Of a stretch of DNA of 64,000 bases, positions 25,523 to 33,100 are shown one piece after another. Numbering within the stretch: position 1 is the stretch's first letter; every line of letters starts with the position of its first letter. The notes below the pieces were generated by a model that was not told the origin of the DNA, searched no databases, and worked only from the letters and a program-made list of their open reading frames with translations. Both the position numbers and the translations under genes were made by a program. The stretch comes from Arthrobacter sp. StoSoilB19 (GTDB taxonomy: Bacteria > Actinomycetota > Actinomycetes > Actinomycetales > Micrococcaceae): NCBI RefSeq assembly GCF_019977275.1, contig NZ_AP024650.1, positions 744,001 through 808,000 on the forward strand, in the 5' to 3' direction.

Positions 25523-27604
25523 GTGACGACTAACTCAGGAACCAGTGCCGCATCCACCAAAATGCCCCAGCGCCGTATCACGGAGGGCCTTCGGTTCGGG
25601 CGTTTTCCCATTACCGCAGTGCAGCCCGTCGTCGAGGGCGGCAAGTTTCCGGCCAAAGCCCTGCCCGGCGAAGCCATCGTGGTGGGCGCCACCGCCTTCC
25701 GCGAAGGGCATGACCAGCTCGGTGTGAGCGCCGTGCTCCTGGACCCCTCCGGCGCGGAGCGCCAGCGTGTGCGGCTCGCGCCGCCCCGCGGGGAACGCGG
25801 CATGGGAACGGACCGCTGGGAAGGCGTGCTCACGCCGTCGGAAACCGGGAACTGGTCCTTTGTGATCGAAGCCTGGCACGACCGCTACGGCACCTGGCAC
25901 CACAACGCCGAGGTGAAGATCGACGCCGGGATCGACGTCGAACTCATGCTTACCGAAGGTGCCAAACTGCTGGGCGAAGCGTCCACCGAGGACTTCCGGG
26001 ACGAGGTGGACCGGGCAGCGCTGCGGCACGCCTCCGACGTCCTGGCCGACCAGTCCCGCAGCACCGAGGAACGGCTCGGGGCAGGGTTCAGCCAGGAAAT
26101 CGCTGACATCGTGGCCCGGCAGCCCATCCGGGAACTGGTGACGGTTTCCGAGAAGTTCCCCCTCCTGGTGGAGCGGGACCGCGCCGGCCGCGGCGCCTGG
26201 TACGAGTTCTTCCCCCGCTCTGAAGGCGCGGTCAAGGACCACAACACGGGCGCTTGGACGTCAGGAAACTTCCGGACCGCGGCAAGGCGGCTCGACGCCG
26301 TGGCCGCCATGGGCTTCGACGTCCTGTACATGCCGCCCATCCATCCCATCGGCGTGCAGCACCGCAAGGGACCCAACAACACCCTGGTTGCCGGCCCCAA
26401 TGATCCCGGCTCGCCCTGGGCCATTGGAGCCAAGGAGGGCGGCCATGACGCCATCCACCCCGACCTCGGTTCCTTCGGGGACTTCGACGCCTTCGTGGCG
26501 CGGGCCAACGAACTGGGCCTGGAAGTTGCCCTGGACCTTGCGCTTCAGGCAGCCCCGGACCACCCTTGGGTGGAGTCCCATCCGGAATGGTTCACCACCC
26601 GGGTGGACGGCAGCATTGCCTACGCCGAAAACCCGCCGAAGAAGTACCAGGACATATATCCGCTCAATTTCGATAATGATCCTGAAGGGCTTTCCCGGGA
26701 AATTCTGCGGATTGTCCTGTTGTGGGTCAGCCACGGCGTAAAGATTTTCCGGGTGGATAACCCGCATACCAAACCGGTGTGGTTCTGGGAATGGCTTATT
26801 GCCGAAGTGAATAAAACGGTCCCGGGCGTGGTGTTCCTCGCCGAAGCGTTCACCCGCCCCGCCATGATGCACGCACTGGGCAGGGCCGGCTTCCAGCAGT
26901 CCTACACCTACTTCACCTGGCGCAACACCAAGAAGGAGATCGAGGCGTACTTCGACGAAGTCAGCCACGAATCCCCGGCCTTCTTCCGCCCCAACTTCTT
27001 CGTCAACACCCCGGACATCCTGACCGAATACCTGCAGTACGGCGGCCCCGCCGCGTTCCGGATCCGGGCGGTCCTTGCCTCCACCGGAAGCCCGCTCTGG
27101 GGCGTCTACGCCGGCTACGAACTGTACGAGCATGTGGCCCGGCCCGGCGCCGAGGAGTACATCGACAACGAGAAGTTCGAGTACAAGGCCCGCGACTGGG
27201 ACGCCGCAGCCGAGTCCGGGCGCTCGCTGGCACCGTACATCACACGGCTGAACCACATCCGCCGTGACCACCCGGCGCTGCTGGACCTTCAGAACCTGAC
27301 GGTCCACCAGAGCACGGACGAATCCACGGTGGTGTACTCCAAGCACAAGACCCTTCCCGACGGGACCAAGGACACCATCATCGTGGTGGTCAACGTGGAC
27401 CCGCATGTCACCAAGGAAAGCAGCGTGGTGCTGGACCTGGCAGCCCTGGAGCTCGATCCGCAGGACCGCACCCCGGGCGGCGGCTTCTACGTTGACGACC
27501 TGATCTCCGGCCAAAGCTGGGAGTGGGGCGAGTACAACTATGTGCGGCTCGACCCGCACGTGGAACCGGCCCACATCCTGAGCGTGAGGAGAATGCATTC
27601 GTGA
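25523..27604 (+). CDS. glgE: Alpha-1,4-glucan:maltose-1-phosphate maltosyltransferase GlgE (GH13_3)
   Basis: A 693-residue enzyme transferring maltose from alpha-maltose-1-phosphate to glucan chains. An N-terminal beta domain (25-115), the GlgE-specific helical insert, and a GH13 barrel follow. MPPIHPIGVQHRKGPNN is family-typical, FRVDNPHTKPVWFWEWLI holds the nucleophile Asp, and VVFLAEAFTRP the acid Glu. GTG 25523 is the start. Its stop overlaps the treS start (GTGA). Gene order glgE-treS-mak/glgB is the classical GlgE pathway operon. Confidence 0.95.
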   Translation: MTTNSGTSAASTKMPQRRITEGLRFGRFPITAVQPVVEGGKFPAKALPGEAIVVGATAFREGHDQLGVSAVLLDPSGAERQRVRLAPPRGERGMGTDRWEGVLTPSETGNWSFVIEAWHDRYGTWHHNAEVKIDAGIDVELMLTEGAKLLGEASTEDFRDEVDRAALRHASDVLADQSRSTEERLGAGFSQEIADIVARQPIRELVTVSEKFPLLVERDRAGRGAWYEFFPRSEGAVKDHNTGAWTSGNFRTAARRLDAVAAMGFDVLYMPPIHPIGVQHRKGPNNTLVAGPNDPGSPWAIGAKEGGHDAIHPDLGSFGDFDAFVARANELGLEVALDLALQAAPDHPWVESHPEWFTTRVDGSIAYAENPPKKYQDIYPLNFDNDPEGLSREILRIVLLWVSHGVKIFRVDNPHTKPVWFWEWLIAEVNKTVPGVVFLAEAFTRPAMMHALGRAGFQQSYTYFTWRNTKKEIEAYFDEVSHESPAFFRPNFFVNTPDILTEYLQYGGPAAFRIRAVLASTGSPLWGVYAGYELYEHVARPGAEEYIDNEKFEYKARDWDAAAESGRSLAPYITRLNHIRRDHPALLDLQNLTVHQSTDESTVVYSKHKTLPDGTKDTIIVVVNVDPHVTKESSVVLDLAALELDPQDRTPGGGFYVDDLISGQSWEWGEYNYVRLDPHVEPAHILSVRRMHS

Positions 27605-29394
27605 GTTTTAATCCGCAAAGTTCCGGCCACTTCACCCCAAAGAGCACGTTCGAGCTAAATGCCCCTGGCCTCCAGCATGACCCGCTGTGGTACCGCAAGG
27701 CCGTGTTCTATGAAGTACTTGTCAGGGCCTTTGCGGATGCCAACGGCGATGGGTCCGGGGATTTCTCCGGGCTCATCGACCGGTTGGATTACCTGCAGTG
27801 GCTGGGCGTTGACTGCCTCTGGCTGCCCCCGTTCTTCCAGTCACCGCTGCGCGACGGCGGCTACGACATCTCCGACTACAACTCCGTCCTGGACGAATTC
27901 GGCACCATCAGCGATTTCAAGCGCCTCGTGGCAGAAGCCCATGCCCGCGGCGTCCGGGTGATCATCGACCTGCCCCTGAACCACACTTCCGACCAGCACC
28001 CGTGGTTCCAGGAATCGCGGAAGGACCCGGACGGCCCTTTCGGGGACTTCTACGTCTGGAGCGACACGGACGAGAAGTACCAGGACGCGCGCATCATCTT
28101 CGTCGACACCGAGGAATCGAACTGGACGTTCGATCCCATCCGCCGGCAGTTCTTCTGGCACCGGTTCTTCAGCCACCAGCCTGACCTGAACTTCGAAAAC
28201 CCGAAGGTGATCGACGCCGTCTTCGACGTTGTCCGGTTCTGGCTGGACCAGGGGATCGACGGTTTCCGGGCAGACGCCATCCCCTACCTCTTTGAGGAAG
28301 AGGGCACCAACTGCGAGAACCTCCCGGCCACCCACGAGTTCCTCCGCCGGCTGCGGGCCATGGTGGACGAAAGCTATCCCGGCCGCGTCATCATTGCCGA
28401 GGCAAACCAGCCGCCCACCGAAGTGGTGGAGTATTTCGGCACCGTTGAGGAACCCGAATGCCACATGGCGTTCCACTTCCCCATCATGCCCCGCCTCTAT
28501 TACGCGCTGCGGGACCAGAAGGCCGCTCCCATCATCGAAACCATGCGCGACACCCCCGACATCCCCGAGGGCGCGCAGTGGGGAACATTCCTCCGGAACC
28601 ACGACGAGCTGACCCTGGAGATGGTCACCGCCGATGAGCGCGCGGCGATGCTGGGCTGGTACGCCCCCGACCCCCGGATGCGGGCCAACATCGGCATCCG
28701 GCGCAGGCTGGCACCGCTGCTTGATAATTCCCGCGCCGAGATCGAGTTGATCAATGCCCTCCTGCTCTCGCTTCCGGGCAGCCCCTTCCTGTACTACGGG
28801 GACGAGATCGGCATGGGGGACAACATCTGGCTTGAGGACCGCGACGCCGTCCGCACCCCCATGCAGTGGAACCCGGACCGGAATGCCGGCTTCTCCCATG
28901 CGGATCCCGGCAAGCTGTACCTGCCGCCCATCCAGTCGCTGGTCTACAACTACGGCATGGCCAATGTCGAAGCGGAGGCTGCCCACTCCGGGTCCCTGCT
29001 GCGCTGGACCCGGCAGATCCTCAGCGTCCGCAAGAACCACCCGGCTTTCGGACTGGGCGGGTTCAAGCACGTGGAGGCGGACCACGACGCCGTCCTGGCC
29101 TACCTTCGTGAACTGCCGGACAGCAACCCTGCGGGCGTCGATGGAGAAATCATTTTGTGCGCCTTCAACCTCTCCCAGCACCCCGTCGCCGCCACGCTGC
29201 GCATTCCGGAATATGCCGGGCGCGGGTTGCGCGACGTCTTCGGTGGACAGATCTTCCCCGGCATCGGCGATGACGGCACCCTCACCCTGACCCTCGGAAG
29301 CCATGACTTCTTCTGGCTCCGCATGCGGTCGGCGGGGTCCAATCCGTCGTCGCCCTTCACCCAGGCCATGCCCATCCTGTCGATAGAGAACTGA
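27601..29394 (+). CDS. treS: Trehalose synthase (maltose alpha-D-glucosyltransferase)
   Basis: A 597-residue GH13 isomerase interconverting maltose and trehalose. LWYRKAVFYEVLVRAFADANGDGSGDF opens the barrel. VIIDLPLNHTSDQHPWF (region I), GFRADAIPYLFEEEGTNCENLP (II, with the TreS-typical loop), VIIAEANQPPTEVVEYFG (III) and FLRNHDELTLEM (IV) are all present. Unlike some actinobacteria it is not fused to the maltokinase. The GTG at 27601 overlaps the glgE stop by 4 bases; the open frame upstream from 27523 is within glgE. Confidence 0.95.
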   Translation: MSFNPQSSGHFTPKSTFELNAPGLQHDPLWYRKAVFYEVLVRAFADANGDGSGDFSGLIDRLDYLQWLGVDCLWLPPFFQSPLRDGGYDISDYNSVLDEFGTISDFKRLVAEAHARGVRVIIDLPLNHTSDQHPWFQESRKDPDGPFGDFYVWSDTDEKYQDARIIFVDTEESNWTFDPIRRQFFWHRFFSHQPDLNFENPKVIDAVFDVVRFWLDQGIDGFRADAIPYLFEEEGTNCENLPATHEFLRRLRAMVDESYPGRVIIAEANQPPTEVVEYFGTVEEPECHMAFHFPIMPRLYYALRDQKAAPIIETMRDTPDIPEGAQWGTFLRNHDELTLEMVTADERAAMLGWYAPDPRMRANIGIRRRLAPLLDNSRAEIELINALLLSLPGSPFLYYGDEIGMGDNIWLEDRDAVRTPMQWNPDRNAGFSHADPGKLYLPPIQSLVYNYGMANVEAEAAHSGSLLRWTRQILSVRKNHPAFGLGGFKHVEADHDAVLAYLRELPDSNPAGVDGEIILCAFNLSQHPVAATLRIPEYAGRGLRDVFGGQIFPGIGDDGTLTLTLGSHDFFWLRMRSAGSNPSSPFTQAMPILSIEN

Positions 29395-29395
29395 G

Positions 29396-32300
29396 ATGAA
29401 CCAGCCAATCCTCACTCCCGCCCTGACCGCGCTGCTCAAGGAATGGCTGCCGCAGCAGCGATGGTTCCCCGTCAAGACACCCGATTTCGCCATTTCCCAG
29501 GCCGGCAGCCTGGGCCTGGAGGATCCCACCGGGCACGCCGCGCTGGCCGTATTCCTCCTCAACGTCACCATGGAGGGGCCCGACGGCGGCCCGCGCAGCG
29601 CCGTGGTCCAGGTCCCCTTGAGCTTCCGCCCGGCACCGGCCGGCGGCATGGAACGGGCGCTGGTAGGCGAAGCCGCAGGAATGGATCCAACCCGTCCCTG
29701 GGTCTACGACGCTGTCCACGACCCCGACTTCGTAGGCGCCTGGCTCGACCTCATCCGGGACGGGTCGAAGGCCGCAAGCGGCAGTGCCACCGGCTTCCGG
29801 GTGGAAGGGCCGCACCGCCTGCCCACTGCCAAGGGCGTGGTGAAGGTGCTCTCGGGGGAGCAGTCCAACAGTTCAGTCATCGTGGACGACGGCGAATCTG
29901 CCGCCATGGTGAAATTCTTCCGCGTCCTGTCGGACGGGACCAACCCGGAGATTGAAGTCGGTGCTGCCTTGACCAGGGCCGGCACAGCGGAAGTCCCCGC
30001 CACCCTGGGCTGGGTCCGCGGGGAGTGGCTCGGAAAATCCGGTAACGCCGGACAAAGCAGCCGCTACGTCCAAGGTGAGCTTGCGGTGGCCCACGAGTTC
30101 CTCGCCGGCGGCCGCGACGCCTGGCGGCTGGCGGTTGACGCCGCCCGCTCCGGCACCGACTTCACGGCAGAAGCCCGAGCCCTGGGCGCGGCCACCGCAA
30201 CGGTGCACAAGCGGTTGGCGGAGGCACTGGGGCAGTCAGCCGAGCCCGAACCCGGAAAGGCGCCAGGAGCTGCTGTTGCCCAGCGTGTCCGCGCTGCTTG
30301 GGCGGAAGCCCGTGCCGCCGTCGGGCCTTACGACGACGCCCTGGACGCCCTGCTGGCTGACCTGGACAAGGTTCCCGCCGGGCCGCTGCAGCGCATCCAC
30401 GGCGACCTCCACCTGGGCCAGATCCTCCTCGTGACCGGACAATCCGGCGACCAGTCGCGCTGGGCCATCCTGGATTTCGAGGGCGAGCCCCTGCGGCCCA
30501 TCTCCGAACGGAACGTCCCGGACGTACCACTCCGGGACGTGGTGGGAATGCTGCGCTCCTTCGACTACGCGGCCGGTGCGGCGCAGCGCGAGCAGGAAGG
30601 TGCGCAGGTCCCGGACAGCTGGGTCGACGATTGCGCTGATGCCTTCCTTGCCGGGTACGCGGGGGTCATTCCCGGCACGGTGGACCGGACCTCGCCCCTG
30701 TTTGTGGCATTGTGGCTGGACAAGGCGCTGTACGAAGTTGTTTATGAAATGCGTAACAGGCCCGACTGGGTGGCGATTCCAGTAAACGCCTCCAGGCGGC
30801 TCCTAAGCGGTAACGGTGCCGGCGATCAGGCCGGTGCAGCATCGGAAGGTAACAAAATGACAGGCTCAGCACGAACTGACCAGCCGGGGGTGCCGCTGCA
30901 CGTGGATGAAGGCACCCTGGGCAGGATCGCGAACGGTGAACACCACGCCCCCCACTCCGTCCTGGGCGCGCACCTGGACGACTACGGGCATGTCACCATC
31001 CGCACCGTGAAGCATCTTGCCGAAGCGATCACCGTGGTCACCCAAGCCGGTGAAGTGCCAATGCAGCACGAGGCACACGGCGTTTGGGTTGCGGTCCTGG
31101 ATCCGCAGGACCAGGGCCACGTTCCCGACTACCGGCTCTCGGTCACCTACCCGGGCAAGGACCCGGTGACCATTGATGAGCCCTACCGCTACCTGCCCAC
31201 CGTAGGCGAAGTGGACCTGCACCTCATTGGTGAAGGCCGGCACGAAAAACTGTGGCAGGTTCTCGGTGCCCACGTGCGGCACTACAAATCATCGCTTGGG
31301 GACGTCAACGGTGTGTCGTTCGCTGTCTGGGCCCCCAACGCGCAGGCCGTCCGGGTCAAGGGCGATTTCAACGCCTGGGACGGACGGGAAAACTCCATGC
31401 GGTCGCTGGGTTCCTCCGGTGTCTGGGAAGTGTTCATTCCCGGCGTCCCGGCAGGTGCCTGCTACAAGTACGAGATCCTGACACGGGGCGGCTACTGGGT
31501 GGAAAAGGCCGATCCGCTGGCCTTCGGCACGGAGGTGCCCCCACTGACGGCGTCCCGGGTGGTGGAACCTTCCTACGCCTTCAAGGACGACGAATGGATG
31601 GAAGCGCGGGCCAAACGGGACCCGCACAACTCGGCCATGAGCGTCTACGAAGTGCACCTCGGGTCCTGGCGGCTGGGCCTTGGCTACCGTGAACTCGCCG
31701 ACGAACTGGTGGAGTACGTCAAGTGGCTCGGGTTCACGCACGTGGAATTCATGCCCGTCGCGGAGCATCCGTTCGGCGGTTCCTGGGGTTACCAGGTCAC
31801 CTCCTATTTCGCACCCACGTCCAGGTTCGGACATCCCGACGAGTTCCGCTACCTGGTGGACGCCCTCCACCAGGCGGGCATCGGCGTGCTCCTGGACTGG
31901 GTGCCTGCACACTTCCCAAAGGATTCCTGGGCATTGGCCCAGTTCGACGGCGAGCCTCTTTACGAGCACGCGGATCCGGCGCTGGGGGAACATCCGGACT
32001 GGGGCACCCTGATCTTCGACTTCGGCCGCACCGAGGTCCGGAACTTCCTGGTGGCCAACGCGCTGTACTGGCTGGATGAGTTCCATATCGACGGCCTGCG
32101 CGTGGACGCGGTGGCCTCCATGCTCTACCTCGATTACTCCCGCCAGGAAGGCCAGTGGCGGCCCAACCGCTTCGGCGGAAGGGAAAACCTGGAAGCCATC
32201 TCCTTCCTGCAGGAAGTCAACGCCACCGTCTACAAGACACACCCCGGCGCCGTCATGATCGCGGAAGAGTCGACGGCCTTCCCGGGCGTCACCGCTCCCA

Positions 32301-33100
32301 CCAGCCACGGTGGCCTGGGCTTCGGCCTGAAGTGGAACATGGGCTGGATGCACGACTCCCTCAAGTACATCTCCGAGGATCCCTTCAACCGCAAGTGGCA
32401 CCACGGAACGGTCACCTTCTCCCTGGTCTACGCCTTCACGGAGAACTTCCTGCTGCCCATCAGCCACGATGAAGTTGTCCACGGCAAGGGCTCCATGCTC
32501 CGCAAGATGCCGGGCGACCGCTGGCAGCAGCTGGCCAACCTCCGCGCCTTCTTTGCCTACCAATGGGCGCACCCCGGCAAGCAGCTCATCTTCATGGGAA
32601 CCGAGTTTGGCCAGGAAGCGGAGTGGTCTGAGCAGCACGGACTGGACTGGTGGCTCGCGGACATCCCCGCGCACCGCGGACTGCAGCTGCTGACCAAGGA
32701 CCTGAACGAGCTGTACGCTGCCACACCCGCCCTCTACACCCAGGACAACGTTCCTGCGGGTTTCCAGTGGATCAACGGGGGAGACGCCGACCGTAACGTC
32801 CTGTCCTTCATCCGATGGGACGCCGACGGCAACCCGGTCGTCTGCGCCATCAACTTCTCCGGTACGCCGCACGTCGGCTACACCCTTGGAGTTCCCACGG
32901 CCGGCGCATGGACCGAGGTCCTTAATACGGACCACACCACCTACGGCGGATCGGGTGTGCTGAACAGTGGAGAGCTGAAGGCCACCAACGAGGGACAGGA
33001 TGGCCAGCCGGCCACCCTTACTGTCACGCTTCCCCCGCTGGGAGCGTCCTACTTCAAGCCCGGGGCCGCATCGGCTGACCAGGCCGACGGGAAGAAATAA
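29396..33100 (+). CDS. glgB: Maltokinase - 1,4-alpha-glucan branching enzyme fusion (Mak/Pep2-GlgB)
   Basis: A 1234-residue two-enzyme fusion. Residues 1-465 are maltokinase: N-cap WLPQQRWFPVK, then an APH-like kinase with HGDLHLGQILL (catalytic loop) and AILDFEGEPLRP (metal-binding). It makes maltose-1-phosphate for GlgE. A Gly/Ala linker (about 466-487) leads to GlgB: GEHHAPHSVLGAH, CBM48 SFAVWAPNAQAVRVKGDFN, then the barrel with GLRVDAVASMLYLDYSR, VMIAEESTAFPG and ISHDEVVHGKGS. Met488 (ATG 30857) at the junction has GGAAGG 7 bases upstream, so a free GlgB of 747 residues may also be made. ATG 29396 follows the treS stop by one base. Confidence 0.93.
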   Translation: MNQPILTPALTALLKEWLPQQRWFPVKTPDFAISQAGSLGLEDPTGHAALAVFLLNVTMEGPDGGPRSAVVQVPLSFRPAPAGGMERALVGEAAGMDPTRPWVYDAVHDPDFVGAWLDLIRDGSKAASGSATGFRVEGPHRLPTAKGVVKVLSGEQSNSSVIVDDGESAAMVKFFRVLSDGTNPEIEVGAALTRAGTAEVPATLGWVRGEWLGKSGNAGQSSRYVQGELAVAHEFLAGGRDAWRLAVDAARSGTDFTAEARALGAATATVHKRLAEALGQSAEPEPGKAPGAAVAQRVRAAWAEARAAVGPYDDALDALLADLDKVPAGPLQRIHGDLHLGQILLVTGQSGDQSRWAILDFEGEPLRPISERNVPDVPLRDVVGMLRSFDYAAGAAQREQEGAQVPDSWVDDCADAFLAGYAGVIPGTVDRTSPLFVALWLDKALYEVVYEMRNRPDWVAIPVNASRRLLSGNGAGDQAGAASEGNKMTGSARTDQPGVPLHVDEGTLGRIANGEHHAPHSVLGAHLDDYGHVTIRTVKHLAEAITVVTQAGEVPMQHEAHGVWVAVLDPQDQGHVPDYRLSVTYPGKDPVTIDEPYRYLPTVGEVDLHLIGEGRHEKLWQVLGAHVRHYKSSLGDVNGVSFAVWAPNAQAVRVKGDFNAWDGRENSMRSLGSSGVWEVFIPGVPAGACYKYEILTRGGYWVEKADPLAFGTEVPPLTASRVVEPSYAFKDDEWMEARAKRDPHNSAMSVYEVHLGSWRLGLGYRELADELVEYVKWLGFTHVEFMPVAEHPFGGSWGYQVTSYFAPTSRFGHPDEFRYLVDALHQAGIGVLLDWVPAHFPKDSWALAQFDGEPLYEHADPALGEHPDWGTLIFDFGRTEVRNFLVANALYWLDEFHIDGLRVDAVASMLYLDYSRQEGQWRPNRFGGRENLEAISFLQEVNATVYKTHPGAVMIAEESTAFPGVTAPTSHGGLGFGLKWNMGWMHDSLKYISEDPFNRKWHHGTVTFSLVYAFTENFLLPISHDEVVHGKGSMLRKMPGDRWQQLANLRAFFAYQWAHPGKQLIFMGTEFGQEAEWSEQHGLDWWLADIPAHRGLQLLTKDLNELYAATPALYTQDNVPAGFQWINGGDADRNVLSFIRWDADGNPVVCAINFSGTPHVGYTLGVPTAGAWTEVLNTDHTTYGGSGVLNSGELKATNEGQDGQPATLTVTLPPLGASYFKPGAASADQADGKK
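30844..30859 (+). promoter_or_regulatory. Internal Shine-Dalgarno and ATG at the maltokinase/GlgB junction
   Basis: GGAAGG at 30844-30849, 7 bases before in-frame ATG 30857-30859. The position coincides with the interdomain linker and the ATG begins a sequence matching stand-alone actinobacterial GlgB in length (747 residues). Internal translation initiation is inferred from spacing and position only. Confidence 0.5.

Follow-up and report, generated by a model that had tools for sequence, protein, structure and literature searches.

The window analysed here is a stretch of 64,000 nucleotides from Arthrobacter sp. StoSoilB19 (positions 744,001 to 808,000 of contig NZ_AP024650.1, assembly GCF_019977275.1). 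It carries a gene in which maltokinase (Mak) and the branching enzyme GlgB are encoded in a single open reading frame (ORF), and in which a candidate ribosome binding site and start codon lie just ahead of the GlgB part (Table 1). On the fusion, Pfam recognizes Mak_N_cap at residues 17-109, GlgB_N at 506-597, CBM_48 at 623-709 and Alpha-amylase_C at 1125-1222. Solved relatives align over the length of both the Mak and the GlgB parts, and the GlgB of M. tuberculosis (3k1d) aligns to residues 506-1222, that is, to a complete GlgB. The NCBIfam model NF011293/PRK14705, of 1224 positions, matches the fusion with 2565.3 bits against a cut-off of 2376; the Mak-GlgB fusion is already known to annotators through this model, though named only as a branching enzyme. 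In a structure model of residues 355-663 the linker contains neither helix nor strand, with a mean predicted local distance difference test score of 50, which weakly supports disorder. Judged from comparative sequence analysis, this one gene very probably makes both a 134-kDa Mak-GlgB fusion and a free, complete 83-kDa GlgB from one mRNA. Ribosomes initiating at 29396 would produce the full fusion, and other ribosomes initiating at the internal GGAAGG-N7-ATG (30857) would produce free GlgB.

The internal site consists of a Shine-Dalgarno (SD) motif, GGAAGG, followed by seven nucleotides (TAACAAA) and by ATG 30857, which encodes Met488 in frame with the fusion and shares its stop codon. GlgB_N and the other GlgB domains are all found downstream of Met488, and the short product would therefore hold the full domain set. 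The initial annotation had described a single 1234-residue frame joining maltokinase and GlgB, GGAAGG seven bases upstream of the ATG, and an ordinary GlgB size and layout from Met488 onward; the ORF, its Pfam domains, the solved-structure alignments, the intact GlgB_N domain and the sequence at 30844-30857 agree with all of this. It had also put the short product near 83 kDa, close to the computed mass, whereas its value of about 132 kDa for the fusion has to be raised to that given in Table 1. The SD motif by itself is not rare: 271 ORFs called over 464 kb of this genome contain 1503 internal in-frame ATGs, and 39 of them, the Met488 site included, have an equal or better SD when scored against the anti-SD sequence. 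When the SD is combined with the predicted openness of the mRNA, Met488 is equalled by only 2 of the 1502 other internal ATGs and by only 9 of 256 ORF starts, each ORF being represented by whichever of its first 40 codons makes the best start. Predicted openness at 30857 ranks fourth among the 1195 codons tested in its own ORF.

Table 1. Features of the mak-glgB locus, in window coordinates.
Feature	Position	Strand	Size or residues	Remarks
Mak-GlgB fusion ORF	29396-33100	+	1234 amino acids, 134.1 kDa computed	NCBIfam NF011293/PRK14705 match, residues 1-1223
Maltokinase (Mak/Pep2) part	29396-30805	+	about residues 1-470	4u94, 5jy7 and 4o7o align within 12-471
Variable Gly/Ala-rich linker	30806-30856	+	residues 471-487	
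Possible mini-hairpin C-GGC-N6-GCC-G	30820-30833	+		directly 5' of the internal SD
Internal SD, GGAAGG	30844-30849	+		
Internal ORF, putative free GlgB from ATG 30857	30857-33100	+	747 amino acids, 82.8 kDa computed	
GlgB N-terminal domain (PF22019)	30911-31186	+	residues 506-597	whole in the short product
treS ORF	27523-29394	+		directly upstream of mak
glgE ORF	25523-27604	+		PF11896, PF21702

The main evidence comes from synonymous positions. Relatives were collected by a scan of genome contigs, and the best 80 of 131, all of them fused in frame, were joined with the window gene in a codon alignment of 81 Arthrobacter/Pseudarthrobacter genes. The junction DNA of these relatives shows GGAAGG, a spacer and ATGAC amid a variable linker, and the predicted mRNA is open at the site throughout (mean percentile 0.02 over the 81 genes; 81/81 at or under 0.25). 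Glu484 is GAA in 81/81 and is the most codon-conserved of 44 conserved Glu columns. Gly485, GGT in 80/81, is narrowly at the top of 94 Gly columns (0.988 versus 0.987 for a GGC column). Met488 is ATG in all 81, Thr489 is ACA in 80 and leads 28 Thr columns (next 0.81), and GCA is used in 79 of the 80 genes with Ala at position 492. One codon is used at a frequency of at least 0.97 in 59 of 734 conserved columns, and only at codons 484, 485, 489 and 492 does that codon end in A or T. On a parsimony tree built without the junction codons 470-505, the 360 four-fold degenerate third positions have a median of 18.5 changes; only seven changed at most once, and six of these belong to codons 475, 479, 483, 485, 489 and 492. 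Among windows of 10 codons, third positions change most slowly in the one that starts at codon 482 (3.9 versus a median of 14.6). The end of treS, which bears the ribosome site of mak and served as a control, dips less: its last six codons have 4-9 changes, where the median for treS is 12. The comparison thus indicates that the internal SD and start are kept under selection beyond coding need, and this comparative evidence is the new point.

The site also persists across the genus, here g1. The pattern GGAAGGTA-N5-8-ATGACAGG was present in 151 of 198 sampled genomes, a sample that may overlap with the best 80 loci and in which matches were counted by pattern alone, whatever the gene in which each falls; the reversed pattern gave no hit among the matches listed for the same 198 genomes. 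Of the 47 genomes missed by the pattern, 46 carry the fusion in an uninterrupted frame of at least 1221, and one, 63% complete, gave no gene match. All 46 keep GGAAGG and a start codon at the usual spacing, 45 being recovered by one pattern and one (L214) by eye; the start is ATG in 45 and GTG in one (L212, genome G538), where the SD is unchanged. GGAAGG with ATG or GTG is found in 197 of the 198 genomes, in 151 of them by the pattern search alone. The initial annotation had raised the question of whether conservation of GGAAGG-ATG goes further than the encoded amino acids demand, and the genus counts, along with third positions nearly frozen in the 81 genes, say that it does.

Outside g1, the family (295 genomes, 212 with a match) and the order (248 genomes, 215 with a match) were searched, and in both fused and unfused genes are intermixed. 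Junctions were taken from 60 of the 212 and 40 of the 215, picked for spread and not at random; these 100 comprise 61 fused genes, 28 unfused genes with mak adjacent and 11 without an adjacent mak. An in-frame ATG or GTG with an SD energy of -6 or below and open mRNA is present in 38 of the 61 fused linkers, representing 20 of 28 genera, versus 3 of 244 control segments of equal length taken elsewhere in the same fused genes. By SD alone, 46 of the 61 reach -6, where 14.6 are expected by codon-order shuffling and 24.8 by synonymous reshuffling.

Two genera outside g1 show how the site is kept in relatives. Genus g24 includes 18 fused and 5 split genomes, and 23/23 have ATG or GTG at the site (GTG in two). 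The fused locus L128 reads AGGGAAAGTGGTGTGGACATGG and the split locus L094 reads AGGGAAAGTGGTGTGACATGG, one base shorter between SD and ATG, as a result of which mak stops directly after the glgB ATG. In L094 and L099 the stretch scanned ahead of the GlgB domain contains no in-frame start codon other than the ATG of the site, and the homologous site is the in-frame glgB start in four of the five split g24 genomes. In genus g32 the homologous start is kept in 29/29 genomes, as GTG in 28 and ATG in one, with GGAAG at the SD position in 26 genomes and AGGAAA in three; GTG accounts for only 42% of the Val codons of this genus. A quick tree of 92 GlgB sequences took in 7 of the 81 g1 genes and left out L093, L095, L096 and L141 (broken frame or N runs) as well as the 11 loci without an adjacent mak. 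On it the fused/split label needs 13 changes, with no direction assigned, and the strongly supported branches force 9 of them. An unfused genus, g19, with an overlapping mak/glgB junction of the form ATGA, is placed beside Arthrobacter (support 85, not starred). The internal site is probably the glgB start that outlived the fusion of mak and glgB, and the proposal in the initial annotation of a fusion plus a free GlgB from one gene finds support in the synonymous conservation, the openness and the split g24 homologues. Two loci, L095 (genome G031) and the split g24 locus L096/L305 (genome G270), have mak and glgB out of frame by one nucleotide, in the linker or directly after the glgB ATG. No clear replacement start is seen in either, and the shift may be a real frame change or a sequence error.

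A further small element lies upstream of the SD, in codons 475-480. Codons 475 and 479 keep their wobble bases without a single change on the 81-sequence tree, and in C-GGC-N6-GCC-G the inner three pairs are possible in 81/81 sequences, G-U pairs counted, and the outer pair in 76/81 (RNAalifold was also used); the element may form a small hairpin that isolates the SD. Two other candidates at the junction were set aside. GTG 30902 (Val503) has a nominally stronger SD when scored with the longer anti-SD string, but is not kept as GTG: 70 of the 81 genes have GTG at the position, 10 use another Val codon and one encodes Leu, and the equivalent codon in one relative (L208) sits in structured mRNA (percentile 0.76). 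As for an internal promoter, a scan of 30500-30950 gave no sigma-70-type site, and the possible -10-like stretch differs among relatives (TAACAA, TAACGA, TAAGAA, TATCAA, TATAAA), on which ground this reading was rejected.

Other causes for the conserved stretch have to be weighed. A slowing of ribosomes has been proposed for SD-like sequences inside genes, and in this gene such a stretch falls exactly between two domains, where a pause could let Mak fold before GlgB with no initiation taking place. Pausing, however, needs neither a start codon, nor open mRNA, nor A-ending codons after the ATG, while here the correctly spaced start codon equals the SD in conservation. Where this codon is not ATG it is GTG (in 1 of 46 pattern-miss g1 genomes, 28 of 29 in g32 and 2 of 23 in g24), and glgB starts at the site in those four of five split g24 genomes; a pause without initiation is consequently judged very improbable. 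Still less probable is that any free GlgB arises by cleavage of the flexible linker by a protease, with the DNA conserved for another cause, such as a regulator or an RNA-binding site. The linker is indeed variable and weakly predicted to be unstructured, and the conserved hairpin-like element lies upstream, but cleavage would leave unexplained both the exchange of ATG for GTG and the conservation, at synonymous positions, of the SD, the start codon and the A-ending codons after it. The least probable reading is that of a neutral relic, an old glgB start left by a recent fusion and now unused. Given the overlapping junction of unfused g19 beside Arthrobacter, a relic would be expected directly after fusion, but codons 483, 485, 489 and 492 changed zero to one time against the four-fold median of 18.5 in the same genes, and the site is kept in nearly every sampled genome of the genus.

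Several observations weigh against a free GlgB made by internal initiation, or limit its reach. Outside g1, 23 of the 61 fused linkers fail the combined SD and openness criterion. The SD excess is modest against the synonymous null, single linkers falling below 0.05 in 8/61 cases (17/61 by codon-order shuffling), and the expectation of 24.8 under that null means that part of the SD signal outside g1 is carried by the encoded residues. The initial annotation had named fusions lacking the internal SD and ATG as a result that would refute a free GlgB: none was seen in the genus, but outside it fused genes without a credible site do occur, among them those of genus g8 (L114, L115, L142) and of L121 and L135. 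Five genomes with a site-less fusion (G105, G085, G062, G025, G171) have one match each at E <= 1e-150, two candidates having been scored per genome, which implies that free GlgB is not required everywhere. In the fifth split g24 genome, G270, a second one-nucleotide frame difference is present downstream and the site is not clearly the glgB start. Finally, the internal site could be hidden under ribosomes that pass over it from mak. The three g8 genes, with no recognisable internal start, would provide natural fusion-only controls.

Internal initiation, giving a fusion together with a free GlgB, can also be considered in its genomic setting. The treS stop abuts the mak start in TGAGATG (within 29392-29401), and the SD of the mak start is much weaker than that of the internal glgB start; this contact and the weak SD suggest translational coupling. 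The TreS model sets in only at residue 56 of the treS frame, and the true start of treS is therefore probably deeper in it. We infer that initiation at 30857 takes place in the cell and that a substantial amount of free GlgB is made, and the difference in SD strength suggests that free GlgB would exceed the fusion. Only one close match to glgB exists in the genome, a single contig of 4.37 Mb, the next (E 5.6e-20) covering part of the amylase domain. The genome has glgC and glgA at other places, and the genes of the GlgE route adjoin the fusion. These arrangements give a plausible reason for free GlgB, namely that the single glgB would also have to serve the GlgC-GlgA glycogen route.

Some of these features have parallels in known systems. 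In Arthrobacter sp. PAMC25564 the branching-enzyme gene (4148869_4145174) has 3696 nucleotides, the length of a fusion (PMC8171050). NF011293/PRK14705 has the same full-length architecture as the window gene, and its name refers to a single product. For the GlgE pathway, fusions of TreS with Mak are described, and in Actinoplanes glgB lies beside mak as a separate gene (PMC11046441, PMC4306142, PMC2885305); the excerpts of these three papers do not describe a Mak-GlgB fusion. The TreS-Mak proteins (PMC4306142, PMC11046441) likewise join a GlgE-pathway enzyme to its neighbour, but with Mak joined to TreS, whereas in the window gene Mak is joined to GlgB and a start for the second enzyme appears to be retained. 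A literature search, with most subscription papers outside its coverage, found no report of an internal start in a Mak-GlgB fusion and no mention of mak-glgB, pep2-glgB or PRK14705.

Two in-frame products from one gene are nevertheless an established kind of arrangement, known from phage endolysins (PMC9430671) and from M. tuberculosis (PMC9094748). Like the window gene, the endolysin genes have two overlapping in-frame ORFs with a common stop and an internal start with its own ribosome binding site. They encode phage lysis enzymes for which both products have been shown, whereas the window gene joins two metabolic enzymes, its two products are predicted, and the short one would be a whole enzyme. 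The isoform starts that Ribo-RET has mapped in M. tuberculosis (PMC9094748), as well as N-terminal proteoforms such as that of ClpB (PMC11005335), likewise combine alternative starts and different N-termini with the annotated stop. The authors of the former study expect many isoform ORFs to reflect pervasive translation; in contrast, the start in the window gene appears to be under strong purifying selection and corresponds to the point where a separate gene starts in relatives.

A fused gene is commonly taken to yield its two enzymes in a fixed 1:1 ratio and is annotated with a single product; a start retained for the second enzyme would break that ratio. Where the genome has a single glgB, free GlgB could supply the second glycogen route. 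Genera with both fused and split junctions are a natural setting in which to follow how fusion of genes and their coupling in an operon replace one another. We lean towards a broader view in which mak-glgB is a hidden operon within a fused gene: across the order it would have changed repeatedly between fused and split forms, a one-base shift of frame at the junction being the cause in one genus or more, with the glgB ribosome site kept under selection. Tethered and free enzyme would then be made together, and the choice of glycogen route would be tuned by start-site strength. Many other fusions of metabolic genes may likewise keep an internal start, which annotation would have missed.

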